Below, piece by piece: positions 18,877 through 31,410 of a stretch of 38,616 bases of DNA. The stretch comes from Candidatus Hodarchaeota archaeon. GTDB taxonomy: Archaea; Asgardarchaeota; Heimdallarchaeia; Hodarchaeales; Hodarchaeaceae. Every line of letters begins with the position of its first letter. Position 1 is the stretch's first letter. The notes below the pieces were generated by a model. The model was not told the DNA's origin and ran no database searches. It saw nothing but the letters and a program-made list of their open reading frames with translations. Location: contig JAEOTQ010000020.1 of NCBI GenBank assembly GCA_016839785.1, positions 1-38,616 on the forward strand, written 5' to 3'. The position numbers were made by a program, and so were the translations under genes.

Positions 18877-19374
18877 GTGGTTGCAGCAGAAGCTATGGAT
18901 TCGACAATTCATGAGATATTGAACTCAAGGGAGAAGGAAAGAAAACATCTGATTCCTATTTTACAGGATGTCCAAAAAGAATATGGATATTTATCTAAGG
19001 AAAATATGATACGAATCAGCAAATATCTTGAAATATCACCAAATGAAGTTTATGGAGTCGCATCCTTTTATCAGCAATTTAAATTCATTAAACCTGGAAA
19101 GCATATAATTTCGGTGTGTTTAGGGACGGCTTGTTTTGTCAAAGGTGGAAATGTTCTTGCAGAAACCGTAAGAACAAAATTGGGTATCGAACCAGGTGAA
19201 ACTACTGAAGATGGGTTATTTAGTTTTGAACGTGTTGCGTGTCTTGGATGTTGCGCATTATCTCCTGTTGTTCAGATAGATAACGAAATCTATGGTCAGG
19301 TGAAACCTTCAAAATTACTCCGCCTTATTAGTCGGATAATTAAGGAAGATCAACCAAAGGAGGAACAAAAATGA
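18877..19374 (+). CDS. NuoE/HndA-like thioredoxin-fold [2Fe-2S] subunit
   Basis: 165 residues, the usual length for NuoE, HydC or HndA. An N-terminal helical bundle (residues 12-65, with LIPILQDVQKEYGYLS) precedes the thioredoxin-like [2Fe-2S] domain with C81 and C86 (CLGTAC) and C122 and C126 (CLGCC). Family knowledge: this subunit sits on the NuoF-like flavoprotein and takes electrons to or from NADH. The start is a GTG at 18877 with GGAG ten bases upstream; an ATG at 18895 is an alternative that keeps the domain. Its stop overlaps the next start (ATGA), so translation is coupled. First gene of a five-gene operon. Confidence 0.9.
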   Translation: MVAAEAMDSTIHEILNSREKERKHLIPILQDVQKEYGYLSKENMIRISKYLEISPNEVYGVASFYQQFKFIKPGKHIISVCLGTACFVKGGNVLAETVRTKLGIEPGETTEDGLFSFERVACLGCCALSPVVQIDNEIYGQVKPSKLLRLISRIIKEDQPKEEQK

Positions 19375-21209
19375 CACAAACCAAATCAGTATCTCCTTAT
19401 TCACAAAAGACTGTTCTAATTTGCAAAGGAACTGGTTGTGTTTCAAGTAAATCAGAAGATATCAGTGAAGAATTCAGGGAACAGCTGAAAAATGTAAATT
19501 TGCTAGAAAAAATAAAGGTAGATTTTACAGGCTGCCATGGATTTTGTGCACAGGGTCCCATTGTCATCATTGAACCAGAAGGTATAATGTATGCTCAGGT
19601 AAAAGTACCTCATGTAGAGAAGATTGTCACTTCACATCTCAAAGATGGGATTCCAGTTGAAGAGCTATTTTTTGTTGATCCTAAGTTAAATAAACGTATT
19701 GGAAAGTATAAAGAGATTGATTTTTACAGTAAACAAACAAGGATGATTTTAGGTAATTGTGGACATATTAATCCAGAAAATATTGATGCTTATATTGAAA
19801 CTGGGGGATATTCTGGACTGAAAAAAGCACTAGAAAAGACACCAAAAGAAATAATTCAAATAATTACAGATTCAGGGCTGAGAGGACGAGGTGGGGCAGG
19901 GTTTTCAACAGGGTTAAAATGGAAATTTTGTCATAATGCTCCTGGTAGTGAGAAGTATATCATCTGTAATGCTGATGAGGGAGATCCTGGAGCGTTTATG
20001 GATCGGTCTTTACTTGAAGCTGACCCACATAGTGTATTGGAAGGGATGATTATTGGGGCTTTTGCTATTGGTGCCTCTCATGGAATAATATATGTTCGTG
20101 CTGAATATCCTCTAGCTATCAAACGTTTTAGTCGTGCTCTTGTGACAGCGAAGGAGCAGGGATTTTTAGGTTCAAATATTCTTGGTTCTGGTTTTTTTCT
20201 TGACATTTCAGTTCATGAAGGAGCGGGAGCGTTTGTATGTGGAGAAGAAACAGCATTAATGTCTTCTATAGAGGGTCATCGTGGAAATCCAAGAACTAGA
20301 CCTCCCTTTCCTGCCACATCAGGACTCTGGGGAAAACCTACGAATATAAACAATGTTAAAACATGGGCTTCAGCAGCCTGGATCTTTAAAAACGGGTGGA
20401 AAAAGTTCCATGAGATTGGTGTAGAGAATGCTACAGGAACAGCCATCTTTTCTTTGACTGGAAAAGTAAAAAATCTGGGTTTGATTGAAGTTCCTATGGG
20501 TACTCCCCTAAAAGATATTGTGTACGAAATTGGTGGAGGAATTTTAGACGATAGAGAATTCAAAGCCGTTCAAACTGGAGGACCTTCTGGAGGATGTCTC
20601 CCACCAAGTCACTTAGATTCACCAGTCGATTATGAGACGATGGCTGCATCAGGGAGTATTATGGGATCAGGAGGAATGATTGTCCTTGATGAAACCAATT
20701 GTATGGTCAAACTTGCTCATTATTTTCTTACATTTACACAGGCTGAATCCTGTGGAAAGTGTATTCCATGCAGAATTGGCACTAGGGCGATGTTATTAAT
20801 TTTAGAGCGAATTATTAAAGGAAAAGGAGAAGATAAGGATCTTATGTTACTGGAGGAACTCGCTTATACCGTTAAGATGGGTTCTTTATGTGCCTTAGGT
20901 CAAACTGCCCCGAATCCAGTATTAACAACTCTTAAGTATTTCCGTAATGAGTATCAGTCTCATATTTTTGAAAAACGTTGTTTAGCCAAAGATTGTCAAG
21001 ACCTGATTAATTATGTCATCGATGAGGATCTGTGCAATGGATGTACAATATGTGCTCGCAATTGTCCTGTCAGTGCGATCACAGGGGAAAAAGGAAAAGT
21101 TCATTTCATTGACACAGCAGTATGTGTCACTTGTGGTATCTGTCATTCAAGCTGTCCAAAAACGGCTATCTTTAAACAAGATAGGCCTCATGAGGTGGTG
21201 TTGGAATGA
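19371..21209 (+). CDS. NuoF/HydB-like NADH-binding flavoprotein with extra Fe-S domains
   Basis: 612 residues in the order of HydB/HndC: an N-terminal thioredoxin-like [2Fe-2S] domain (C18, C23, C55, C59); the FMN/NADH domain with GRGGAGFSTGLKW (172-184) and NADEGDPGAFMDR (200-212); a SLBB part; the NuoF C-terminal [4Fe-4S] site (CGKCIPC at 461-467 plus C507); and two ferredoxin clusters (C555, C558, C561, C565 and C585, C588, C591, C595). Family knowledge: the FMN here is the bifurcation or NAD(H) site in HydABC and NfnABC-type enzymes. It overlaps its neighbours by ATGA on both sides. All cluster ligands and the flavin motif are intact, so it should be active. Confidence 0.93.
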   Translation: MTQTKSVSPYSQKTVLICKGTGCVSSKSEDISEEFREQLKNVNLLEKIKVDFTGCHGFCAQGPIVIIEPEGIMYAQVKVPHVEKIVTSHLKDGIPVEELFFVDPKLNKRIGKYKEIDFYSKQTRMILGNCGHINPENIDAYIETGGYSGLKKALEKTPKEIIQIITDSGLRGRGGAGFSTGLKWKFCHNAPGSEKYIICNADEGDPGAFMDRSLLEADPHSVLEGMIIGAFAIGASHGIIYVRAEYPLAIKRFSRALVTAKEQGFLGSNILGSGFFLDISVHEGAGAFVCGEETALMSSIEGHRGNPRTRPPFPATSGLWGKPTNINNVKTWASAAWIFKNGWKKFHEIGVENATGTAIFSLTGKVKNLGLIEVPMGTPLKDIVYEIGGGILDDREFKAVQTGGPSGGCLPPSHLDSPVDYETMAASGSIMGSGGMIVLDETNCMVKLAHYFLTFTQAESCGKCIPCRIGTRAMLLILERIIKGKGEDKDLMLLEELAYTVKMGSLCALGQTAPNPVLTTLKYFRNEYQSHIFEKRCLAKDCQDLINYVIDEDLCNGCTICARNCPVSAITGEKGKVHFIDTAVCVTCGICHSSCPKTAIFKQDRPHEVVLE

Positions 21210-22816
21210 GCAAATGGATGAACATAAATGGGAGGCGTGTCGTATTTGAAGAAGGAGAGACTGTACTAGAAGTTGCCACAAAAGCAGGAATTTACATTCC
21301 CACACTCTGTGCAAGGCCCGATTTACCTTCATTTGGAGCATGTAGATTATGCATTATCGATGTCGAGGGAGCTCGAACATATCCAAATTCCTGCACTTTG
21401 CCTGCTAGAGAGGGAATGGTTGTAAGAACTGCGACACCAGATTTGCAAGCTGTCCGTAGAAATGTTTTTCAGCTAATTCTTGCTGAACACCCTAGTTATT
21501 GCATTATCTGTAAAGAACACGACGAATGTGAAAAAGTACGTCATGGGGAATATAAGGCTGGGAGAGTTATTGGATGTTTTACTTGTAGTAATAAAGAAAT
21601 TTGTGAAATTCGTGAGATTTCAGAATATTTAAGAATCAAAGAAATTCGCTATCCGATGCTTTATAAAAATCTACCGTTGGAACGTGATGATCCTTTTCTT
21701 GTAAGAGACTATAATCTTTGTATTTTATGTGCTCGTTGTATCCGAGCATGTCAGGACGTTCTGGGTTACAGTGCCATTGATTTAACAAAGCGTGGTCATG
21801 ATACTAAAGTTGGGACGATTTCAGAGGTGTCTCACCTAGAAAGTGGGTGTGTATTCTGTGGTCATTGTATTGATGTGTGCCCAACAGGAGCCCTCATTGC
21901 CCGTGGTTCAACTTGGTTTGGAAAACCTGATAAATCTGTTACAACTACTTGCAATCTTTGTTCGCACGGATGTCAAATGGTGATTGATGTAAAATGGGAC
22001 AAAGTAGTAAATGTCCATCCCCCATATGAACTGTCTGCTCGGCGTGAATATTGTGTAAAAGGTCGTTTTTGCATTCCTGCCTTAGTGAATGGTCGAGATC
22101 GTCTTAAATACCCAACTATTAAACGGAAATTGATCAAAGAAGAACAACATCCTGTTTCATGGGATGAAGCAATTTCTTACACAGCTGAGAAGTTAAAATC
22201 CTTTAAACCAGAGGAAATTGGGATTATTATTGCTCCATCGTTAACTGATGAATCTGTGTTTATTTTGTCGAAATTTGCTCAGAAAGTCAGTACTAATTCA
22301 ATCGTATATGATGAGGAAGGAATTATGAGTTTACAATCTCAGGGAGTCAAAGCATATGTTACAACTTTCAATTCGAAAATATTTTCTAAACTTGAAGGTT
22401 TAGAATTCCTCGTACTCCAAGATATATATGAATCGATTACTTCTGAATCTGCGGAAGTCGTTCTTCCTACAACAGTATTTACTGAAGAAGATGGAACAAA
22501 ATCAGGGGAGGAATACATGAGATATTCAATAAATAAAGCAGTTGAACCGCCTGGTGAGGCACTTCCCAGCTGGGCTATCTTCTGTCGCATAGCTCAATCG
22601 ATGGAATTAGAAGGGTTCAGTTATAATTCAATTGAGGAATTGAAAGATGAAATTATGAATTCAGAACCTTTAGATATACCCAAAATCTCAAAACAAAACC
22701 TTGAATATATGGGAATTCCTCTAACTGAAAAAGTTGAGGAATTTAGACTTTACATTACTACTAAACGGGCTATCAATCAATCAGAAGGAAAAGGTGAAGT
22801 AGATGTCCAAATTTGA
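21206..22816 (+). CDS. NuoG/FdhA-like Fe-S subunit with collapsed molybdopterin domain
   Basis: 536 residues. N-terminal [2Fe-2S] domain (C35, C46, C49, C63); a His-Cys [4Fe-4S] site (H95, C99, C102, C108); an extra Cys group (C124, C127, C133); two ferredoxin clusters (C172, C175, C178, C182 and C215, C218, C221, C225); and the molybdopterin-type [4Fe-4S] motif (C249, C252, C256, C283). After that only the first and last pieces of the molybdopterin domain remain (WDEAISYTAEKL at 319-330; VLPTTVFTEEDGTKSGEEY at 419-437), and the cofactor-binding middle, several hundred residues in formate dehydrogenases, is missing. No H-cluster motif is present. It is therefore an electron-wiring subunit, not a hydrogenase or formate dehydrogenase. 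Coupled by overlap on both sides. Confidence 0.87.
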   Translation: MSKWMNINGRRVVFEEGETVLEVATKAGIYIPTLCARPDLPSFGACRLCIIDVEGARTYPNSCTLPAREGMVVRTATPDLQAVRRNVFQLILAEHPSYCIICKEHDECEKVRHGEYKAGRVIGCFTCSNKEICEIREISEYLRIKEIRYPMLYKNLPLERDDPFLVRDYNLCILCARCIRACQDVLGYSAIDLTKRGHDTKVGTISEVSHLESGCVFCGHCIDVCPTGALIARGSTWFGKPDKSVTTTCNLCSHGCQMVIDVKWDKVVNVHPPYELSARREYCVKGRFCIPALVNGRDRLKYPTIKRKLIKEEQHPVSWDEAISYTAEKLKSFKPEEIGIIIAPSLTDESVFILSKFAQKVSTNSIVYDEEGIMSLQSQGVKAYVTTFNSKIFSKLEGLEFLVLQDIYESITSESAEVVLPTTVFTEEDGTKSGEEYMRYSINKAVEPPGEALPSWAIFCRIAQSMELEGFSYNSIEELKDEIMNSEPLDIPKISKQNLEYMGIPLTEKVEEFRLYITTKRAINQSEGKGEVDVQI

Positions 22817-23693
22817 GATCCTAAAGAAAGAAGAATTTGTACCCAATTTTTATAAGCTAGATATCGCTGTACCTGGTATAGCTAAGAAAGCTAAAGCAGG
22901 TCAATTTATTTTAGTGATGGTGGATAAGCAATCAGAGAAGATTCCATTAACTATATTAGATTGGGATGAAGAAAAGGGTACAATTTCTTTTATTGTCCAA
23001 GAATTAGGTTTATCTACTTCAAAGATGGCATTTATGGAGGAAGGAGATTCATTCTATAGTATTGTTGGTCCATTGGGAGAACCAGCCTACTTGGAAAACT
23101 TTGGGACCGTTGTATTAGGAGGAGGATGTTACGGTGTTGGAGCAGTCTTTCCAATAGCAAAAGGCCTTAAGGCACTTGGAAACTATGTTATAACGATAAT
23201 TGAGGCCAAAAATGAAAATCTCCTGTATTATGAAGAGGAATATAAGACTGTAAGTGATGAAGTCATTCTCGTGACTACTGATGGATCTAAAGGGGAACGT
23301 GGGCATATTTACGACGTTCTCGACAATATGATTGAAGTGCAGAAGCGTAAAATTGATCATATTAAAGTCATTGGCTGTAATGTCATGATGAGTAAGGTGT
23401 CAAAGCTTACAAAAGAGAAGGGAGCTATCCCAACCTATGCAACTGTTACTACAATTATGGTTGATGGAACAGGTATGTGTGGAAGCTGTCGATTATCCTA
23501 TGACGGGAAAACAAAATTTGCTTGTGTAGATGGACCAGAATTTGATGCTCACAAAATAGATTGGGATGAATTAATACACGTTCGGAATACCTCCTATATT
23601 ACAGAAGAAACATTGGGTTTACAGAATTTTTCTCCTGAATGTCGTTCTCTAGCTAAATATCAGGAAAGAACAAAGGAAGAGGAAGCATCATGA
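22803..23693 (+). CDS. NfnA/PyrK-like ferredoxin-NADP reductase subunit
   Basis: 296 residues, close to the usual length of NfnA (about 280). A FAD-binding barrel with KIPLTILD (47-54, normally RxPLT), a NAD-binding part with GGGCYGVGAVFP (106-117) and a C-terminal [2Fe-2S] site with D221, C226, C229 and C241 in MVDGTGMCGSC...FACVDGP, which is the Asp/three-Cys pattern of NfnA. Family knowledge: NfnA holds the NAD(H)-side FAD in the NfnAB bifurcating transhydrogenase. It overlaps the NuoG-like gene by 14 bases and the NfnB-like gene by 4, so it is made with them. Odd: the usual Arg of the FAD motif is Lys, unlike the second copy at 28126-29973. Confidence 0.9.
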   Translation: MSKFEILKKEEFVPNFYKLDIAVPGIAKKAKAGQFILVMVDKQSEKIPLTILDWDEEKGTISFIVQELGLSTSKMAFMEEGDSFYSIVGPLGEPAYLENFGTVVLGGGCYGVGAVFPIAKGLKALGNYVITIIEAKNENLLYYEEEYKTVSDEVILVTTDGSKGERGHIYDVLDNMIEVQKRKIDHIKVIGCNVMMSKVSKLTKEKGAIPTYATVTTIMVDGTGMCGSCRLSYDGKTKFACVDGPEFDAHKIDWDELIHVRNTSYITEETLGLQNFSPECRSLAKYQERTKEEEAS

Positions 23694-25423
23694 AATCTAA
23701 AGAACGAATGCAGATTCCTTTTACAGATATGCCTACCCAACCTCCCCAGGTTCGTGCTAAGAATTTCCGTGAAGTGCCCTATGGTTATTCTGAAGAAATG
23801 GCTATCCAGGAAGCAAATCGATGTCTGAACTGTAAGAAACCTAAATGTGTCGAGGGGTGCCCTGTTCGTGTTCCCATCCCCGAATTCATCTCTTTGGTAC
23901 AAGAAGGTAAGTTTTTAGAAGCAGCATGGAAAATCAAAGAGCGAAACGTTCTTCCTGCTGTTTGTGGGCGCGTGTGTCCTCAGGAGACTCAATGTGAAGC
24001 GCAATGCATAAGAGGTAAAAAAGGGAGATCTGTCGGTATTGGTAATCTCGAGAGGTTTGTTGCAGATTATGAAAGACTTAGTGGGCATATTCCTGAACCA
24101 ATACGAGTAAGCAAAAATGGAAAAAAGGTCGCAATTGTCGGGAGTGGCCCGTCAGGTTTAACGACTGCTGGAGATTTGATTTTACAGGGATATGAAGTTA
24201 CAGTATACGAGGCATTTCACCTTGGAGGAGGGGTTCTTGTTTATGGTATTCCTGAATTCAGGTTACCAAAATCTGTAGTCCAGTTTGAAATTCAGAATTT
24301 AGAGAATGCTGGGGTTAAGTTTGTCTATGATTCAGTCATTGGGAGAATTCGAGGGATAGATGAATTGTTTACAGAAGATGGATATGATGCAGTTTATGTT
24401 GGGGTTGGAGCTGGATTACCTGTCTTTATGAATATTCCTGGTGAAAATTTACAAGGGGTCTATTCAGCGAATGAGTATTTGACGCGTTCAAACTTGATGA
24501 AAGCGTATCTTTATCCCGAATATAATACACCATTACTTACTGGAAAGAATGTAGTTGTAGTAGGTGGAGGAAATGTTGCTATGGATTCAGCCCGTACTGC
24601 CTTACGATTAGATGCTGATAATGTATATATCGTCTACCGTCGATCTAGAGAACAAATGCCTGCTAGGTTAGAAGAAGTTCATCATGCAGAGGAAGAAGGA
24701 ATCCAATTTCGACTACTTTCTAATCCAGTAGAGATCATGGGTGATGAAAAAGGACGAATTGAATCTATCAGATGTCAACGATATGAACTTGGAGAACCTG
24801 ATAAGTCAGGTCGGGCACGCCCCGTCCCGATAGAGGGAGATTATTTTGTGCTCAATTCGGATCTGATTATCATAGCAATAGGCAATAAAGCTAATCCTCT
24901 TATAACGATGACCACACCCGATTTAGAGGTAAATAAATGGGGAAATATTGTAACTGACGAACTAGGAAGAACAAGTAAGCCATTTGTATACGCTGGTGGG
25001 GATATAGTAACTGGAGCTGCAACAGTGATTTCTGCAATGGGCGCTGGACGACGTGCAGCAATGGCCATTCATGAAGATCTTTTTCCAACAACTGAAGTAA
25101 AGACAGAGGGCTTTACTATTCCTAAAGAGACATTAGAAATAAAGCATGCAGCAATTTATCCAAAAACGGTCTATTTAAGACTTAATTTAATTAATTCTTC
25201 AGAGAAAGAGCTTGACCAAGTCAAAATTCGTATTTCTCATGTTCATGATTTCTTTGAAACAACTATGTTTGAAACAACTATCCCTCGCTGGTCGCCTGGC
25301 GAAGAACACGAATTTGATTGTCCTCGTATAGATAAAAACGAGAAAGAATATCTGATTACGATTAATGACCTACATGGTAAAATTATGTCAAAAATTATTG
25401 TTGCTGAGGAAGTAAAAAGATAA
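23690..25423 (+). CDS. NfnB-like NADPH flavoprotein with an added C-terminal beta-rich domain
   Basis: 577 residues. An N-terminal helical region holds two [4Fe-4S] sites (C45, C48, C53, C57 and C92, C96, C102, C106), then FAD motif GSGPSGL (151-157), NADP motif GGGNVAMD (292-299) with YRRS (316-319), and closing GGD (437-439). This is the NfnB/GltD small-subunit fold, and the usual length (about 470) is reached at residue about 467. A further 110 residues (about 468-577) form a beta-rich tail with the same N-x-S/T...V-x-I-R-I...FF...W pattern as the two unknown proteins encoded at 25849-26892 and 26967-27914. Family knowledge: NfnB carries the bifurcating FAD and binds NADPH. Last gene of the operon, convergent with the CBS gene. 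Confidence 0.9.
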   Translation: MKSKERMQIPFTDMPTQPPQVRAKNFREVPYGYSEEMAIQEANRCLNCKKPKCVEGCPVRVPIPEFISLVQEGKFLEAAWKIKERNVLPAVCGRVCPQETQCEAQCIRGKKGRSVGIGNLERFVADYERLSGHIPEPIRVSKNGKKVAIVGSGPSGLTTAGDLILQGYEVTVYEAFHLGGGVLVYGIPEFRLPKSVVQFEIQNLENAGVKFVYDSVIGRIRGIDELFTEDGYDAVYVGVGAGLPVFMNIPGENLQGVYSANEYLTRSNLMKAYLYPEYNTPLLTGKNVVVVGGGNVAMDSARTALRLDADNVYIVYRRSREQMPARLEEVHHAEEEGIQFRLLSNPVEIMGDEKGRIESIRCQRYELGEPDKSGRARPVPIEGDYFVLNSDLIIIAIGNKANPLITMTTPDLEVNKWGNIVTDELGRTSKPFVYAGGDIVTGAATVISAMGAGRRAAMAIHEDLFPTTEVKTEGFTIPKETLEIKHAAIYPKTVYLRLNLINSSEKELDQVKIRISHVHDFFETTMFETTIPRWSPGEEHEFDCPRIDKNEKEYLITINDLHGKIMSKIIVAEEVKR

Positions 25424-25848: not shown

Positions 25849-26892
25849 TTAAATTCTCTTAATTTTCAAAGTATCTTCTTCATCTTCTATTTTAAGTAAA
25901 TAACGGATCCCATCTTCAATTTCAGGTTTGAAATCAATTCCTTTAACCTCACCTTGATCCCATTTCTCAAGTTTTTTGAGGGCCTTATCCTTTCCAAAGA
26001 ATCCACGAGATTCATAGATTCGAATTGTCACATTCTTTATAGTGAAGGGAGAGGTATTTTTTAATGAAATTGCTACTAAATCTTCCCCTCTATTTATTGA
26101 TAAGATTTTGATTGTTTTCTGCCTTCCTCGGATATCTTCCGTTTTAGATTGGCCAATAACTTTGCTATCTTTACTTCTTGGAATCGCGAATCTTAATTTC
26201 TTCTTTGGAACAGATTTTGAAAGAAATTTCTTATCAACTTCAACTATCTTTTCTCGTTTTCTGTCTTTTCGAAATAACGGTTCAAGCTTACTAATTGGTA
26301 TGTTAGGAGTTAATGACTGGCAAATTTCCGTTAGCTCTTCTTCAACTAACCTTGCATTTTTTAGGGAAAAATCTTCACTGAGCTTGTTTGCAGATGATTC
26401 AAGCTGGAATCTAACGAGATAGCAGAGATGCTTGCTGAAATCTTCTTTAATTTTAGAATAAAATTCATGGAGTATTTCTTGAGCAACGAAAGAGACTTCT
26501 GAAGGAGCTTTTACTATAAGGATGAACCTTTCCTTCTGCCACTTCATTGCCTTCATACCTGACCGTTTTTTCAAGCGTTGTGTATCGCATTCAAAGAGAG
26601 TGGCTGAATATACTACTCCACTAAGTTCAAGATCCATTGTCGAGAATTTATCAGACTTAAGAAACTGATCTTGATGCCACCATGCCGGATGAATAGTTAA
26701 AATGGCCCTTTCATTTTCATTTTCCATAAGAGCCTTTGGGTAGGTAAAAAGTAACGAATGACCTTGTAATTCATCGTAAAAATAAATGAAAAATCCAAAA
26801 GAACGATCTTCTACTTGAAGATGAATCGAATCAATAGGATTTGATTTCCCATTCGGCAAAGAAATGTACTCCAAATAATCGTGAAGATACAC
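25849..26892 (-). CDS. Unknown protein with longin-like N-terminus and NfnB-tail-type C-terminal domain
   Basis: 347 residues. Residues about 30-165 alternate strands and helices (GFFIYFYDELQGHSLLFTYP) and align with the next gene upstream: D-x3-G-x3-L-[FY]-x2-P, then H-x2-W and D-L-x2-S. This looks like a longin-type or similar alpha/beta domain. A Lys-rich linker (about 205-235) precedes a beta-rich C-terminal domain (260-347) that matches the tail of the NfnB-like subunit: SLKNTSPFTIKNVTIRI, then FF and W at equal spacing. The start is a GTG at 26892 with no obvious ribosome site. It lies between the CBS gene (17 bases) and its paralogue (74 bases). Function unknown; a partner or regulator of the redox complex is suggested by the shared domain. 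Confidence 0.6.
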   Translation of the reverse strand: MYLHDYLEYISLPNGKSNPIDSIHLQVEDRSFGFFIYFYDELQGHSLLFTYPKALMENENERAILTIHPAWWHQDQFLKSDKFSTMDLELSGVVYSATLFECDTQRLKKRSGMKAMKWQKERFILIVKAPSEVSFVAQEILHEFYSKIKEDFSKHLCYLVRFQLESSANKLSEDFSLKNARLVEEELTEICQSLTPNIPISKLEPLFRKDRKREKIVEVDKKFLSKSVPKKKLRFAIPRSKDSKVIGQSKTEDIRGRQKTIKILSINRGEDLVAISLKNTSPFTIKNVTIRIYESRGFFGKDKALKKLEKWDQGEVKGIDFKPEIEDGIRYLLKIEDEEDTLKIKRI

Positions 26893-26966: not shown

Positions 26967-27914
26967 TTATGCAGGTTCAATATCCAATGATTTAATTGCC
27001 ACAGTTTGATTCTTACTACTGATTTTTAGCATGTAGCTTTCCAATTTTGAAGATCGAGGGAATTCAAGAATTAAATCTTCCTTAGTAGGCCATTCCTCAA
27101 GATTTTGCTCCCACAAATTCTCACTGAAAAACTCCGTCTTCTTGGAAACTTTTATCTTAACTTCTTCTAACGTCTCTGTTTGATTAACTAAAATGACTAA
27201 AACTTCATCGGCACTCTCTTCAGTGCTTAATATCCGCATTGTAACTGATTCTTTAAAAAAACTCTTTTCAGGAGACTTTTTATCTAGAGAGTGCAAAGAG
27301 GATTTTGAGATTGATAGATTTTGAGAAGAAAAGAATATTCTGGTTTCAGTTAATTTGTTTCCAAGATTTTCCCATAGCGTTTGGAGGGATTTACCAATTT
27401 TAGCTGCCTTATCCGAATATTGCAAATACTTCCGTCTTTTAGTAGGATTTAACTTCAATATATGCCGTTTGTACAATACTTCGATATCTTTCCAATGATT
27501 AGTTTGCAGATCGTCTCGGAATTGTTCCAGTGCTTCTGGATGTATGAAATCCCCATCCTTCCATATTTTTAGCACGATCCCAAAAATCGGCTTTTCTACG
27601 GTACCTATAACGTCTTGTGATTGAGATTCTTGTAATTGAAGCGCTGTATAAATAAACTCTGAAATCTTCAGGTCTATACGCATAGGAATGTGTTCAACCT
27701 TCCATATGTAATGGGTTTTCAATACATTATGTTCTTCAGAGTTTTTTCGCAGTTTTGTTGGAATAGAATAAAGGATTTGTAGTCCATAGGTTGTATCGAA
27801 CGAACATAAGTAGAATCCGATCAAGCTCGAAGAAAATGAATGTGGCTTGGTTGATTTTTCCAGCTCCGTAGAATTCGTACTAAAAGGATCTATATTCATT
27901 GTATTTGCTGCCAT
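26967..27914 (-). CDS. Unknown protein, paralogue of the downstream neighbour, with NfnB-tail-type C-terminal domain
   Basis: 315 residues from the ATG at 27914 (a TTG one codon earlier is possible). The N-terminal domain (about 30-165; GFYLCSFDTTYGLQILYSIP) follows the same pattern as the neighbour at 25849-26892. A linker of low complexity rich in Ser, Lys and Glu (about 195-222) leads to the C-terminal domain, where VNQTETLEEVKIKVSKKTEF lies 13 residues before a conserved Trp (FF...W) exactly as in the NfnB-like tail. It faces away from the next operon (TrxR-NfnA fusion) across a 211-base gap and is probably first in a three-gene minus-strand unit with the neighbour and the CBS gene. No recognised family. 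Soluble. Confidence 0.6.
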   Translation of the reverse strand: MAANTMNIDPFSTNSTELEKSTKPHSFSSSLIGFYLCSFDTTYGLQILYSIPTKLRKNSEEHNVLKTHYIWKVEHIPMRIDLKISEFIYTALQLQESQSQDVIGTVEKPIFGIVLKIWKDGDFIHPEALEQFRDDLQTNHWKDIEVLYKRHILKLNPTKRRKYLQYSDKAAKIGKSLQTLWENLGNKLTETRIFFSSQNLSISKSSLHSLDKKSPEKSFFKESVTMRILSTEESADEVLVILVNQTETLEEVKIKVSKKTEFFSENLWEQNLEEWPTKEDLILEFPRSSKLESYMLKISSKNQTVAIKSLDIEPA

Positions 27915-28024
27915 CAAGTATTTGCAAATGAATCATTGAATTAGTCAATTTGAATCTCTTTGCGTTCTATTTCTGTTTTAACTTCAAAAATCTTGGTATA
28001 TTCATGATTGTGAACGAGAATATC

Positions 28025-28125: not shown

Positions 28126-29973
28126 TTGGAGCAGAATCTGTTGGAATCAAAGATATGGGATGTCATATGTGTGGGAGGTGGCCCTGCAGGCCTTTCTTGT
28201 GCAATTCGAGCGGCAGAACTAGGACGAAGTGTTCTTGTTCTTGAAGCTAGATCAGGATCAGCCACAGCAGGTAGCATGATGGTAGATGGGTACCCAGGAT
28301 TTTTCAGTATTACTCGCCAAGAATTACTGGATAAAATGGCTCGTCAAGCAAAATATCATGCAACGATCAGATATGCTGAGCGTGTCAGTCGATTAGAGCT
28401 TGAGGGAGAAATCAAACGAGTATATACCACTGTTGAGAGAGGAGAATTTTTCACAGAAGAGATCACATACCAAGGCAAAACAGTACTTATCGCTACAGGG
28501 TTACATCCAAAAAAAATAAATGTTCCTGGGGAACGAAAATTCCATTCTAAAGGAATTTATTATAATAATCCTCCTGAAGGGGAATATGAAGAGAAAAATG
28601 TTGCCATAATCGGTCACAACTCATGGGCTGTACGTAATGCTCTTCATTATGATTCGATTGGGGCACATGTATGCTTGATTACCGCTAGAGATGCTTTTGA
28701 TGCCCATCCTGCATTGTTAAGGCGACTTAATGAAAGCTTTGTCAATATCCGTTTTGGTCATGAAGTTATTTCATTTGAAGGAGATTTAAAAGTTCAAAAA
28801 GTGAATTTAAAGAAACATACAGGTGAGAAAGTTACTATCTCAACTGAGATTATTGTAATCCTCAGTAGTAAAATTAAGAACAGAGAATTATTCATGAATG
28901 CTGGCTTGGCCATTACACCTGAAGGGAAAATTATCATAAATTCAGCAAACCAAGATACAAATTTACAGGGAGTATTTGCCGCTGGCAGTGCCATAAGAGG
29001 AGACTCGATTGTCGGAATTGACGCTGCAGAAGGTCAAACGGCCGCAATGCAAATTTCTCGTTATCTCACCAATCTTGAAAAAGAAGAAACCAAAACGATA
29101 CCTGAAAAATTGGAAGCTTCCTTGGCCCAAAGATTTGTTGAAGGGAGAAGTATCATTCTTGAGAAAGTTGATTTATCCCCAGAAATAATCAAATGGGTGG
29201 TTCATGCACCACGGATAGCTGAAAAATGTCAACCTGGCCAATTTGTTATTTTACGTGTCACCGATCATGGTGAAAGAATTCCTTTGACAATTGCTGATTT
29301 CGATCGAGGAGAAGGAACTATTACACTTATCTTTCAGAAGATAGGAAAAAGTACAAAATTGATGGGAAGACTAAATACTGGAGATCACATACTGAACCTG
29401 CTAGGACCCCTTGGTGAACCTGTGAAGATTGAAAAATGGGGAACAGTAGCAGTATTAGGAGGAGGATGTGGTGTTGCCCCTGTATTACCAAAAACAAAAG
29501 CAATGAGAGATATAGGAAATTATATAGTAAGCATCATCTCAGCTCGAACAGGATCCCTTCTAATCTGTCAAGATGAGATGAATGCAGCAAGTGATGAACT
29601 ACATATTGCTACAGATGACGGCACATTAGGTCATCATGGATTTGGTTTAGATTTATTACAAAAATTCATAAAAGAAGGGAGGAAATTTGATCATGTCGTA
29701 GCTGTTGGCCCGATCCCTATGATGAGAGCAGTCGTAAATTTCACAAAAAAGCACAACATTCCGACCATAGTGTCATTAGCTCCACTTATGGTAGATGGAA
29801 CTGGTATGTGTGGGGCCTGTCGGGTGACGGTGGGTGGAAGAGTGAAGTTTGCCTGCGTAGATGGGCCAAATTTTGATGGCTTAAAGGTTGATTTTGATGA
29901 ATTGACTCTTCGATCACAAGCATACCGCTATGAGGAACGGGTTGCTGTTGAAAAGATGTCTAGAACTAGTTAA
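28126..29973 (+). CDS. Fusion of a thioredoxin-reductase-like flavoprotein to an NfnA-like subunit
   Basis: 615 residues in two parts. Residues 1-315 have the thioredoxin-reductase fold: FAD motif GGGPAGL (17-23) and a closing GVFAAGSAIRG (282-292, normally GVFAAGD). The redox CxxC is gone: the place for CATC reads YYNNPPEG (145-152), and the NADPH site GGGNSA reads GHNSWA (163-168). Residues 340-600 are NfnA: RIPLT (384-388), GGGCGVAP (445-452) and the [2Fe-2S] ligands D557, C562, C565, C577. The start must be non-ATG: a TGA stands at 28123-28125 directly before the TTG at 28126 (next TTG at 28141). It lies 15 bases before the second NfnB-like gene. The N-terminal part is presumably a scaffold or extra FAD carrier, not a thioredoxin reductase. 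Confidence 0.85.
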   Translation: MEQNLLESKIWDVICVGGGPAGLSCAIRAAELGRSVLVLEARSGSATAGSMMVDGYPGFFSITRQELLDKMARQAKYHATIRYAERVSRLELEGEIKRVYTTVERGEFFTEEITYQGKTVLIATGLHPKKINVPGERKFHSKGIYYNNPPEGEYEEKNVAIIGHNSWAVRNALHYDSIGAHVCLITARDAFDAHPALLRRLNESFVNIRFGHEVISFEGDLKVQKVNLKKHTGEKVTISTEIIVILSSKIKNRELFMNAGLAITPEGKIIINSANQDTNLQGVFAAGSAIRGDSIVGIDAAEGQTAAMQISRYLTNLEKEETKTIPEKLEASLAQRFVEGRSIILEKVDLSPEIIKWVVHAPRIAEKCQPGQFVILRVTDHGERIPLTIADFDRGEGTITLIFQKIGKSTKLMGRLNTGDHILNLLGPLGEPVKIEKWGTVAVLGGGCGVAPVLPKTKAMRDIGNYIVSIISARTGSLLICQDEMNAASDELHIATDDGTLGHHGFGLDLLQKFIKEGRKFDHVVAVGPIPMMRAVVNFTKKHNIPTIVSLAPLMVDGTGMCGACRVTVGGRVKFACVDGPNFDGLKVDFDELTLRSQAYRYEERVAVEKMSRTS

Positions 29974-29988
29974 GGAGTGTTGAGCATC

Positions 29989-31410
29989 ATGAGTGAAGAA
30001 AGGGAACAACGTAAACAAAAGCTCAAGAAAAAACGTACTCATATGAGTGTTCAAGAATCTCGCGAACGGATCCGCAATTTCAGCGAAGTGGCATTGGGAT
30101 ATACGGATGAAGAGGCACTGGAGGAAGCCTCTCGTTGTTTGAAATGCAAAAAGCCCCGATGTGTAAAGGGGTGCCCAGTCAATGTCCAAATCCCAGAGTT
30201 CATTCAGAAAGTACTGGAAAATGACATCAATGGAGCGAAAGACATTATTTTATGCACAAATAGCCTTCCAGCAATAACTGGACGTGTCTGTCCACAAGAA
30301 AATCAATGTCAAGAATTCTGCATTCATCCGAATGCTATTTCTATTGGCAATCTTGAAAGATATGTTGCAGATCAGGGACAGAGTGGCGAACGAAATATTT
30401 CTAGCAGTTTAGGAACTAAAGTGGCAATTGTCGGAGCTGGACCATCAGGATTAACTTGTGCTGCGGAATTAGCAACTCTAGGTCACAAAGTAAACGTCTA
30501 TGAAGCATTACATGAATATGGTGGTGTATTAACATACGGAATTCCAGAGTTCCGTATGCCCAAATCCATTGTAAACGACGAAATCGAATCTGTTAGAGCA
30601 TTAGGTGTGGAATTTGAAAAAGATACTCTTATTGGGAGAACTATAACTGTAAATGAGCTTTTAGAAAAACATAATTTCAACGCCGTTTATGTGGCTTCGG
30701 GTGCTGGTACTCCGAATTTTCTAGGTATTCCTGGTGAAAATTTAAATGGGGTTTTTTCTGCAAATGAATTTCTCACAAGAGTGAATTTATTGAAAGGTTA
30801 CCAATTCCCTGATTATGATACTCCTGTGACTATTGGTGAAAAAGTGGCTGTTATTGGCGCAGGTAATGTTGCCATGGACTGTGCTAGAACTTCATTGAGA
30901 TTAGGAGCACGAGAAGTCGATATCATTTATCGAAGATCCGAAGGTGAAATTCCTGCTCGATTAGAGGAAATTATTCATGCTAAAGAAGAGGGAGTAGTAA
31001 TTGGGGAATTAATTTCACCGTTGGAAATAATTGGCGATAATAAGGGGAATGTAGTCGGCCTTAAATGTATGAAAATGGATCTAGGAGAAAAAGATGCCTC
31101 AGGTCGACGTCGACCTATTCCAATTCCTGAAACAGAATTCATTTTTCCTGTTGATACGGTCATAATTGCTATTGGTCAACGTCCGAATCAATTGATTGCT
31201 CTTACAACTGACGGATTAGAAACTACCAAGTGGGGGACGTTTGTACATAATGAAGAGACGGGTGCTACAACTCGGGAAAGAATTTTTTGTGGTGGTGATG
31301 TAGCAACAGGAGCAGCTACGGTAATACTCGCCATGGAAGCAGGTCGAAAAGCAGCTAAAGCAATTCATGAAATGATCATTGAGAAAGATTTGAATCACAG
31401 TACAAAATAG
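29989..31410 (+). CDS. NfnB-like NADPH flavoprotein, second copy, without C-terminal extension
   Basis: 473 residues from the ATG at 29989 (SD AAGGAG ends 11 bases before; an in-frame GTG at 29977 lies inside that site and is unlikely). It has the NfnB order: Fe-S set CLKC..CVKGC, then TGRVCPQENQCQEFC where the first Cys of the usual CGRVCPQ is Thr, FAD motif GAGPSGL, NADP motif GAGNVAMD with YRRS, and final GGD. The Thr is also found in GltD-type proteins, so it is not a defect by itself. It ends soon after the GGD domain, lacking the tail of the first copy. It pairs with the fusion protein upstream as an NfnAB-like transhydrogenase. GltD (glutamate synthase small subunit) is the alternative, but no large subunit is near. 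Confidence 0.88.
   Translation: MSEEREQRKQKLKKKRTHMSVQESRERIRNFSEVALGYTDEEALEEASRCLKCKKPRCVKGCPVNVQIPEFIQKVLENDINGAKDIILCTNSLPAITGRVCPQENQCQEFCIHPNAISIGNLERYVADQGQSGERNISSSLGTKVAIVGAGPSGLTCAAELATLGHKVNVYEALHEYGGVLTYGIPEFRMPKSIVNDEIESVRALGVEFEKDTLIGRTITVNELLEKHNFNAVYVASGAGTPNFLGIPGENLNGVFSANEFLTRVNLLKGYQFPDYDTPVTIGEKVAVIGAGNVAMDCARTSLRLGAREVDIIYRRSEGEIPARLEEIIHAKEEGVVIGELISPLEIIGDNKGNVVGLKCMKMDLGEKDASGRRRPIPIPETEFIFPVDTVIIAIGQRPNQLIALTTDGLETTKWGTFVHNEETGATTRERIFCGGDVATGAATVILAMEAGRKAAKAIHEMIIEKDLNHSTK

Follow-up and report, generated by a model that had tools for sequence, protein, structure and literature searches.

Nfn, with its one special flavin adenine dinucleotide (FAD), and Bfu, with flavin mononucleotide (FMN) and iron-sulfur (Fe-S) clusters, are two of the four known machineries of electron bifurcation and are thought to be mechanistically different. 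The described systems close to the locus presented here include StnABC of Sporomusa ovata, which we take to be structure 8oh5, and Nfn-Bfu of Thermococcus sibiricus, which we take to be 9n5u because its chains are named NfnA/NfnB and because of the order of its domains. In the account of Schut et al. (PMC9304861), the Bfu family is defined by its BfuBC core, and this 2022 catalogue lists Nfn-Bfu with the NADP (nicotinamide adenine dinucleotide phosphate) module as a domain of BfuA. In the description of StnC, a strictly conserved Lys replaces the Glu of NfnB and the FAD is reported as non-bifurcating (PMC10482914). Here we describe a five-gene operon (positions 18877-25423, + strand) of a Hodarchaeales archaeon, contained in a window of 38,616 nucleotides (nt), the whole stretch of contig JAEOTQ010000020.1 that was analysed and to which all coordinates refer, in which Bfu-type genes overlap genes for NfnA- and NfnB-like proteins. 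We give a probability of about 0.6 to the reading that the products of all five genes form a single soluble complex, a Bfu variant with NADP(H) as third substrate and NfnA as connector.

The operon consists of five open reading frames (ORFs) encoding proteins of 165, 612, 536, 296 and 577 amino acids (aa), which lie at 18877-19374, 19371-21209, 21206-22816, 22803-23693 and 23690-25423, so that consecutive ORFs share 4, 4, 14 and 4 nt. Their family matches are, in order, a NuoE-type 2Fe-2S thioredoxin, a NuoF/HydB type, a NuoG-like protein, NfnA (PRK06222) and NfnB (TIGR01316), in agreement with a preliminary description of this DNA that had named five overlapping NuoE-, NuoF-, NuoG-, NfnA- and NfnB-like genes. 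Among 227 genomes of the phylum of the window (Asgard), BfuA of the operon type, the NuoG-like subunit, was found in 32 at E <= 1e-60, and NfnA and NfnB follow it in 27 of these (families f1, f7, f28, f18 and f19), including one operon split over two contigs (G046) and some with genes interrupted or cut by contig ends. The five-gene order therefore exists elsewhere among the Asgard archaea, and because it recurs across families it is not due to chance. In the other five genomes, one has only a piece of NfnA (G213), contigs end inside BfuA in two (G084, G087) and NfnAB is absent in two (G089, G090); a further genome, G091, carries one BfuA locus with NfnAB and one without (C299). Within the genus of the window, operon-type BfuA occurs in 8 of 12 genomes. 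In five loci of families f18 and f19 (L058, L059, L061, L062 and L063), BfuA and NfnA are a single fused protein, followed by NfnB.

The preliminary description had also raised the question of whether the two halves occur independently in relatives, and here the answer is divided. The best-scoring NfnAs (at least 268 bits), found in 30 genomes, are linked to BfuA in 28 and lie at contig ends in the other two. The families as such do separate: some NfnA is present in 163 of the 227 genomes at E <= 1e-20, stand-alone NfnA being common, BfuB reaches E <= 1e-90 in 52 of the 227 and has several arrangements there, and the BfuA type occurs without NfnAB in L064, L065 and L066. A strict-pattern scan of genome contigs returned six loci, all from Hodarchaeota or Heimdallarchaeota, a result that does not by itself show absence from bacteria. 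A plasmid search gave only matches below 60% identity, and the BfuA ones among the matches listed were formate dehydrogenases.

Differences from known systems are found in the NfnA-like protein (22803..23693, +; 296 aa; PRK06222, E 9.7e-100; 5jca_S, E 2e-77), which comprises a FAD domain, a changed NAD(H) domain and a [2Fe-2S] site with an Asp ligand. The operon-type set (n = 30; L156 and L157, cut on their upstream side, were included by similarity) was compared with a sample of 26 stand-alone NfnAs, made up of the copies lying in the studied loci, 17 of them hand-picked from the phylum match list. In the ferredoxin-NADP+ reductase (FNR) fold, the GGGxG and GPxxMM loops line the nucleotide cleft. 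The canonical NAD(H)-binding loops are not present in any of the 30 operon-type proteins: the loop reads GGGCYG in the window (23118..23135, +), and its C109 is Cys in 30/30 operon-type NfnAs vs Gly in 26/26 stand-alone ones, while C192 in the GPxxMM loop (23376..23378, +) is Cys in 30/30 and Pro in 26/26. At E134 (23202..23204, +) the operon type invariably has Glu (30/30), against Gly (18) or Ser (8) in the stand-alone proteins, and it is further marked by the loss of R39 and of D159. The [2Fe-2S] ligands D221, C226, C229 and C241 (23463..23525, +) are retained in 30/30, and by these ligands all 30 agree with the motif DGTGMCGxCRx10CV given for NfnA in PMC6405883. The a-FAD motif is EKIPLT in the window where ERxPxT is expected; the 30 operon-type proteins have Arg (25) or Lys (5) and Thr (23) or Ser (7) in this motif, and the 26 stand-alone ones all have ERxPxT. 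Since pairwise identity within the operon type falls as low as 42%, the marker residues are probably held by selection, though they arose once. With the NAD(H) domain changed in all 30, free NAD+ is probably not the end point of the NfnA branch as it usually is, and the earlier proposal that a full NfnAB pair provides two flavin branches finds no support in that form.

The NfnB-like protein (23690..25423, +; 577 aa; TIGR01316, E 8.5e-178, above the cut-off; 4ylf_B, E 9.9e-157) has two [4Fe-4S] sites, a FAD site of the bifurcating type, an NADPH site and a genus-specific C-terminal domain. Its Fe-S ligands C45, C48, C53, C57, C96, C102, C106 and E121 (23822..24052, +) are conserved in 29/29 operon and 23/23 stand-alone NfnBs, and so is R191 of the EFRLPK motif (24260..24262, +), taken as the FAD N5 arginine and, from its motif, as the counterpart of R201 in the NfnB of P. 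furiosus. The NADPH-motif residues R317, R318 and R326 are found in 29/29 operon proteins and in the 22/22 stand-alone ones with letters there. This comparison was confined to matches of at least 350 bits and so leaves aside, among others, the split gene of L055. Both motifs given for NfnB in PMC6405883, RCx2Cx4Cx3CPV and GRVCPQExQCx3Cx13Gx2ER, are present along with the FAD and NADPH arginines, the last spacer of the window protein being x11 instead of x13. Operon NfnBs lose no column that is conserved in stand-alone NfnB, and as judged from these alignments NfnB retains every tested bifurcation and NADPH residue; an internal contrast is offered by a 1156-aa protein of L050, which has Lys at the position of Glu121.

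The C-terminal domain of NfnB (residues 467-577; 25088..25420, +) was found in the window and in all seven loci of the genus with a complete gene, where the protein has 577 aa (468-548 aa in other operon NfnBs). Two proteins encoded nearby, at 25849-26892 (-) and 26967-27917 (-), end in domains related to these ~110 residues (hhalign probability 96.8% and 93.7%); they have no Pfam match and are homologous to each other (hhalign 98.7%). It looks as if a domain had been transferred between a redox subunit and adjacent proteins.

BfuA (21206..22816, +; 536 aa) is NuoG-like by family matches, by its ligand table and by Foldseek. It has sites for a [2Fe-2S], a His-Cys3 [4Fe-4S], two further [4Fe-4S] and an A5-type [4Fe-4S] cluster, and all these ligand positions, among them the A3 ligands H95, C99, C102 and C108, are retained in the 33/33 rows with letters. 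An additional motif, GCxxCx5C (C124, C127 and C133; 21575..21604, +), is present in 33/33 rows with letters, and C289 in GRFC (22070..22072, +; GRFC in 32/32) is the candidate fourth ligand of an extra cluster. Motif and C289 both occur in 32/32 BfuAs of the operon type, and neither occurs in any of 15 other BfuA-like proteins of the same phylum, each longer than 400 aa, seven of which have a C..GR motif without the Cys and eight of which lack the motif. Because the four cysteines occur together, they could perhaps hold one further [4Fe-4S] cluster, and as the second CxxCx5C resembles the A3 region of 7t2r_A in phmmer alignments, it may reflect a tandem duplication of A3. The AlphaFold model of the window BfuA has pLDDT (predicted local distance difference test) values below 50 over much of the Fe-S region and is too poor for placing this cluster. 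Foldseek returned 75-kDa subunits of complex I, formate dehydrogenases and 7t30_A with template modelling (TM) scores of about 0.5 and, among the 50 matches listed, a root mean square deviation of 12.5-16.2 Å, which confirms no more than a NuoG/formate dehydrogenase-type fold. Among solved proteins 7t2r is the third-best match (184.6 bits), behind two formate dehydrogenases.

The molybdopterin-like domain of the window BfuA is shortened and no Cys-His pair was found after C283, as the preliminary description had said in denying a working molybdopterin site; nor was the pair found in the 748-769-aa BfuAs of family f28, whose molybdopterin domain is full-length. Its statement that there is no H-cluster agrees with the lack of any match to the [FeFe]-hydrogenase H-cluster domain PF02906 in the genome of the window (G000; 4.04 Mb, 248 contigs, 84.5% complete), in which a NiFe-hydrogenase model gave two 70-aa matches, one of them marginally above the cut-off. 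No hydrogenase or formate dehydrogenase site was seen in the complex, and for want of PF02906 in this genome and of the Cys-His pair in the window and f28 BfuAs, formate dehydrogenase or hydrogenase activity is disfavoured as the third reaction. The 536-aa BfuA contains no GltD part either, NfnB being a separate ORF.

The two remaining subunits correspond to the Bfu core. BfuC (StnA/HydC/NuoE-like; 18877..19374, +; 165 aa; PF01257, E 3.9e-49) has one [2Fe-2S] site, the ligands of which, C81, C86, C122 and C126, are retained in 28/28 proteins (relatives' loci plus the window). BfuB (StnB/HydB-like; 19371..21209, +; 612 aa) matches over nearly its full length 7t2r_B, the NiFe-Bfu subunit (778.7 bits), followed among solved BfuBs by 9n5u_B (729.5 bits). 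It comprises an FMN/NAD(H) domain, an N-terminal [2Fe-2S] B5 (C18, C23, C55 and C59), a [4Fe-4S] B1 (C461, C464, C467 and C507), an unusual [2Fe-2S] B2 and two C-terminal [4Fe-4S] sites with eight Cys. The B2 ligands given for 7t2r_B in PMC9304861, C438, C476, C531, C536 and H525, were placed by hand via the pairwise alignment on C444, I482, C537, C542 and H531 of the window protein. Four of them, C444, H531, C537 and C542 (20700..20996, +), are retained in the 52/52 rows that have letters there in our ligand table of 54 rows, some of which are pieces of one gene. Position 482 is variable (Thr 14, Ile 11, Lys 7, Ser 6, Arg 6, Val 4, Cys 4). The B2 His is missing from non-bifurcating BfuB homologues according to the section on this cluster in PMC9304861, and by its ligands (clusters B1-B5, B2 His and the [2Fe-2S] of BfuC) BfuBC is consistent with the Bfu family. 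The earlier assertion that all ligands and flavin motifs are intact has to be corrected for Ile482 in B2 and for the EKIPLT a-FAD motif and the non-canonical NAD(H) loops of NfnA.

Set against the described systems, the operon resembles both Stn and Nfn-Bfu in its BfuBC core, in a NuoG-like BfuA with an inactive formate dehydrogenase-like part, in a GltD/NfnB-like NADPH module and in the predicted NADPH/NAD+/ferredoxin chemistry. In Stn, however, GltD is a domain of BfuA (StnC) and carries Lys (K170), whereas here NfnB is a separate full protein with eight ligands and Glu121 in 29/29; Stn has no NfnA, the gene for which here comes immediately after that for BfuA or makes one protein with it, and the four extra cysteines of BfuA are a further difference. 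Compared with NfnAB (NfnI) of Thermotoga maritima (4ylf) and Pyrococcus furiosus (5jca), NfnB shares each of the cofactor and NADPH motifs that were compared, and NfnA shares family and [2Fe-2S] ligands, but the operon NfnA has C109, C192 and E134 and is linked to or fused with BfuA. The NfnII (Xfn; 5vj7) of P. furiosus also pairs a normal NfnB with an NfnA-like subunit whose NADH-binding domain is altered, and is described in PMC6405883 as without NAD+-dependent activity; it differs in its loop substitutions and in having no Bfu module. Bam-Bfu, in which benzoyl-CoA reductase is joined to BfuABC and HdrA, provides a precedent for a second bifurcating flavin module on a Bfu core, as proposed in the text on this enzyme in PMC9304861, although the module is of the HdrA type and the substrate is different. 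Bfu Type 3, represented by the NiFe-Bfu HydABCSL of Acetomicrobium mobile (7t2r), shares BfuABC and extra subunits that bring the third substrate, these being hydrogenase subunits there and NfnA/NfnB here, where BfuA also has its extra cysteines. The window has the A3 cluster site in BfuA and, downstream, NfnA and NfnB as presumptive additional subunits, both being features of this type. The five-gene system is accordingly neither Stn nor plain NfnAB, and within the Bfu family it is nearest to Type 3 of the published scheme. Among the entries listed by searches of an open-access library, no title or abstract beginning concerns such a Bfu-NfnAB arrangement.

Gene order, fusions, ligands, clades and substitutions were observed directly, and from them we infer a physical association of NfnA and NfnB with BfuABC. 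The claim of the preliminary description that the diaphorase is wired to NfnAB stands in so far as a single complex is indicated by the conserved order, the fusions, the BfuA and NfnA clades and the NfnB residues. NADP(H) is the most likely third substrate. BfuBC, NuoE/NuoF-like, would be the NAD(H)/ferredoxin core with FMN, and BfuA, its molybdopterin domain inactive, would be an Fe-S wire. NADP(H) would be bound by NfnB, and NfnA would connect the NfnB flavin to BfuA, its rebuilt NAD(H) domain probably delivering electrons not to free NAD+ but to BfuA, or else to some special acceptor; NfnA is thus probably a relay and not a second NADH site. The direction in the cell would most likely be towards NADPH, with NADH and reduced ferredoxin being used. 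Two wirings can be drawn. In wiring A, the [4Fe-4S] pair of NfnB would feed BfuA as in Stn and NfnA would serve another acceptor; in wiring B, NfnA would pass the high-potential branch to BfuA and the [4Fe-4S] pair would serve ferredoxin. Wiring B is favoured for topology because of the BfuA-NfnA fusions and because the changes are confined to NfnA.

Two working bifurcation sites are no more likely than a single one. It is conceivable, though the odds are clearly against it, that the enzyme is a double bifurcator, in which the NfnB FAD and the FMN/Fe-S site of Bfu would act in series via the re-purposed NfnA and the extra BfuA cluster, so that four electrons of NADP(H) would be split 1:3 or 3:1, not 1:1, between NADH and ferredoxin. 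With potentials (E') of -280 mV for NADH, -380 mV for NADPH and -500 mV for ferredoxin (Table 1 of PMC9304861), the NADP(H) balance was computed as -390 mV for a 1:1 enzyme, -335 mV for wiring A and -445 mV for wiring B. A double bifurcator would accordingly hold the NADPH pool near -445 or -335 mV and not at -390 mV.

The trees agree in part with a single complex. The 30 operon-type NfnAs lie on one side of a branch from the 26 stand-alone ones (support 100/99), and so do the operon-type BfuAs (33 rows vs 15; SH-aLRT 97), the loci without NfnAB included; the BfuA tree was built without Stn-like BfuAs and the pieces of L045 and L155. A single clade of operon NfnBs is not in the best tree and yet is not rejected (approximately unbiased (AU) test, p 0.36). 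Several observations weigh against the proposed complex. The NfnA substitutions that mark the operon type all date from a single branch, and the 30/30 counts are therefore not 30 independent events. Taken with one cut locus and the four loci of the group without NfnAB, the BfuBs of the five-gene loci do not form a single clade (30 rows vs 19, AU p 0.0017). Three loci (G089, G090 and G091:C299) have operon-type BfuA and no NfnAB downstream, the fifth B2 ligand position of the window BfuB is Ile482, and two of the four B5 Cys are Gly in the operon BfuBs of family f7, as they also are in the two Stn-type BfuBs listed. Finally, the AlphaFold model of a fused BfuA-NfnA (L063) has a predicted TM score (pTM) of 0.58, without confident docking of the domains. 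As the BfuBs are not one clade, there was either an exchange of the core or an artefact of the tree. The BfuB tree, in which some long branches were flagged and Stn-type BfuBs form their own group, was built without the BfuB pieces of L041 and L056 and others shorter than 450 aa. The simplest reading would be a stable unit of BfuA, NfnA and possibly NfnB, with the BfuBC core exchanged in some lineages. The loci without NfnAB group with the fused BfuA-NfnA loci in the BfuA tree, and loss or replacement of NfnAB there is therefore one option.

Stn has the same partners (BfuBC, a NuoG-like and a GltD-like protein) and the same likely third substrate, and Stn-type loci are present in the phylum (L142-L145 and L148), which makes it conceivable that the operon is a split Stn. 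NfnB would then be only the NADPH-oxidising input, its FAD non-bifurcating and its two [4Fe-4S] clusters feeding BfuA, and NfnA would be structural or accessory. We consider this unlikely, since NfnB has Glu121 in place of the strictly conserved Lys of StnC and 8/8 ligands vs the 5/8 reported in the StnC description of PMC10482914, NfnA retains its [2Fe-2S] ligands in 30/30, and Stn-type BfuBs are a separate group, both types being held by G054, G055 and G060. As an origin of the operon, too, a split Stn is disfavoured by this separate BfuB group and by Glu instead of Lys. If instead a canonical Nfn were bolted to the Bfu core, with two NAD(H), one NADP(H) and two ferredoxin sites, the NfnA family match, the intact [2Fe-2S] ligands and the canonical NfnB would all be explained, but the invariance of C109, C192 and E134 in the operon NfnA and their absence from 26/26 stand-alone proteins, with NfnB meanwhile losing no conserved column, make this improbable.

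Much the same doubt applies to an NfnA with an acceptor of its own, in which C109 and C192 would form a redox disulfide or a metal site and the high-potential branch would reduce a disulfide, a sulfur compound or another nucleotide. It is favoured by the two invariant cysteines that are new in the nucleotide domain, one in each of two loops which are close together in the FNR fold, and P. furiosus NfnII with its undefined acceptor is a precedent; the BfuA-NfnA fusion, however, points to an internal role. It is still harder to credit two separate enzymes that are merely co-regulated, a Bfu enzyme with another third substrate and an NfnAB-like one. The Bfu and Nfn families do occur apart in the phylum, and three loci have operon-type BfuA without NfnAB, but BfuA and NfnA are fused in five loci, each is one group and the two recur together where BfuB does not, and the changed NfnA is linked to BfuA in 28/30 (contig ends in 2/30). 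We therefore retain the single complex, with NfnA as connector, as the preferred reading.

Other arrangements of Bfu and Nfn genes also occur in the phylum. In L151 (7215-10274), BfuB and an NfnB-like part (Fer4_20, Pyr_redox_2) form one 1019-aa polypeptide adjoined by a 237-aa BfuA-like protein, by its domains a further way of joining the two modules. The complete operon-type BfuAs without NfnAB (L064, 8449-11364; L065, 2608-5592; L066, 6908-9826) have 971-994 aa with a C-terminal extension for two [4Fe-4S] clusters, and that of L070 (1-1296) is cut at a contig end. Other loci (L135-L137, L139-L141 and L153, some cut) have a long BfuA without the extra cysteines, for which "Fdh-like" is our working label. 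Genomes G054, G055 and G060 carry, beside a five-gene locus, a Stn-type locus (L144, L143 and L148, respectively) and offer a natural pair for comparison; the Stn-type BfuA of G054 is incomplete, with 217 aa lying at the end of a contig. In L046 and L047 (family f7), the five-gene operon is followed downstream by genes for another NfnA and for an NfnB that is about 130 residues longer at its N terminus. The NfnBs of L171 (1926-4700), L173 (6204-8933) and L174 (5831-8569), of 909-924 aa, adjoin stand-alone NfnA and contain a NuoF-like ferredoxin stretch in their extra N-terminal part.

Around the operon of the window, a GTPase gene lies upstream, 215 nt from the first operon gene, and the 3' neighbour is convergent, ending 9 nt past the last stop. 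The genome has a single PF10588 match and two NfnA Fe-S domains (PF10418), both inside the window. A second Nfn locus, paralogous and outside the complex, consists of a protein in which a canonical NfnA is joined to a thioredoxin-reductase-like domain (28126..29973, +), with Gly and Pro at two discriminating columns as in the stand-alone type, and of a second NfnB (29977..31410, +), which falls outside the operon NfnB group. This locus (28126-31410) has counterparts next to the five-gene operons of L038-L042 (L042 cut) and L045, and could possibly be an Nfn feeding a disulfide.

The Nfn half of Stn is reported to be without bifurcation, whereas here the NfnB flavin site is kept and its partner NfnA is rebuilt. 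The system thus makes the coupling of two bifurcating sites in one enzyme, and its stoichiometry, directly testable. Its history appears modular, with BfuA, NfnA and possibly NfnB travelling together and the BfuB cores without a single history. Asgard archaea are the closest known archaeal relatives of eukaryotes. The operon would give Hodarchaeales and other Asgards an enzyme for making NADPH, and the redox economy of these archaea bears on the origins of eukaryotes.

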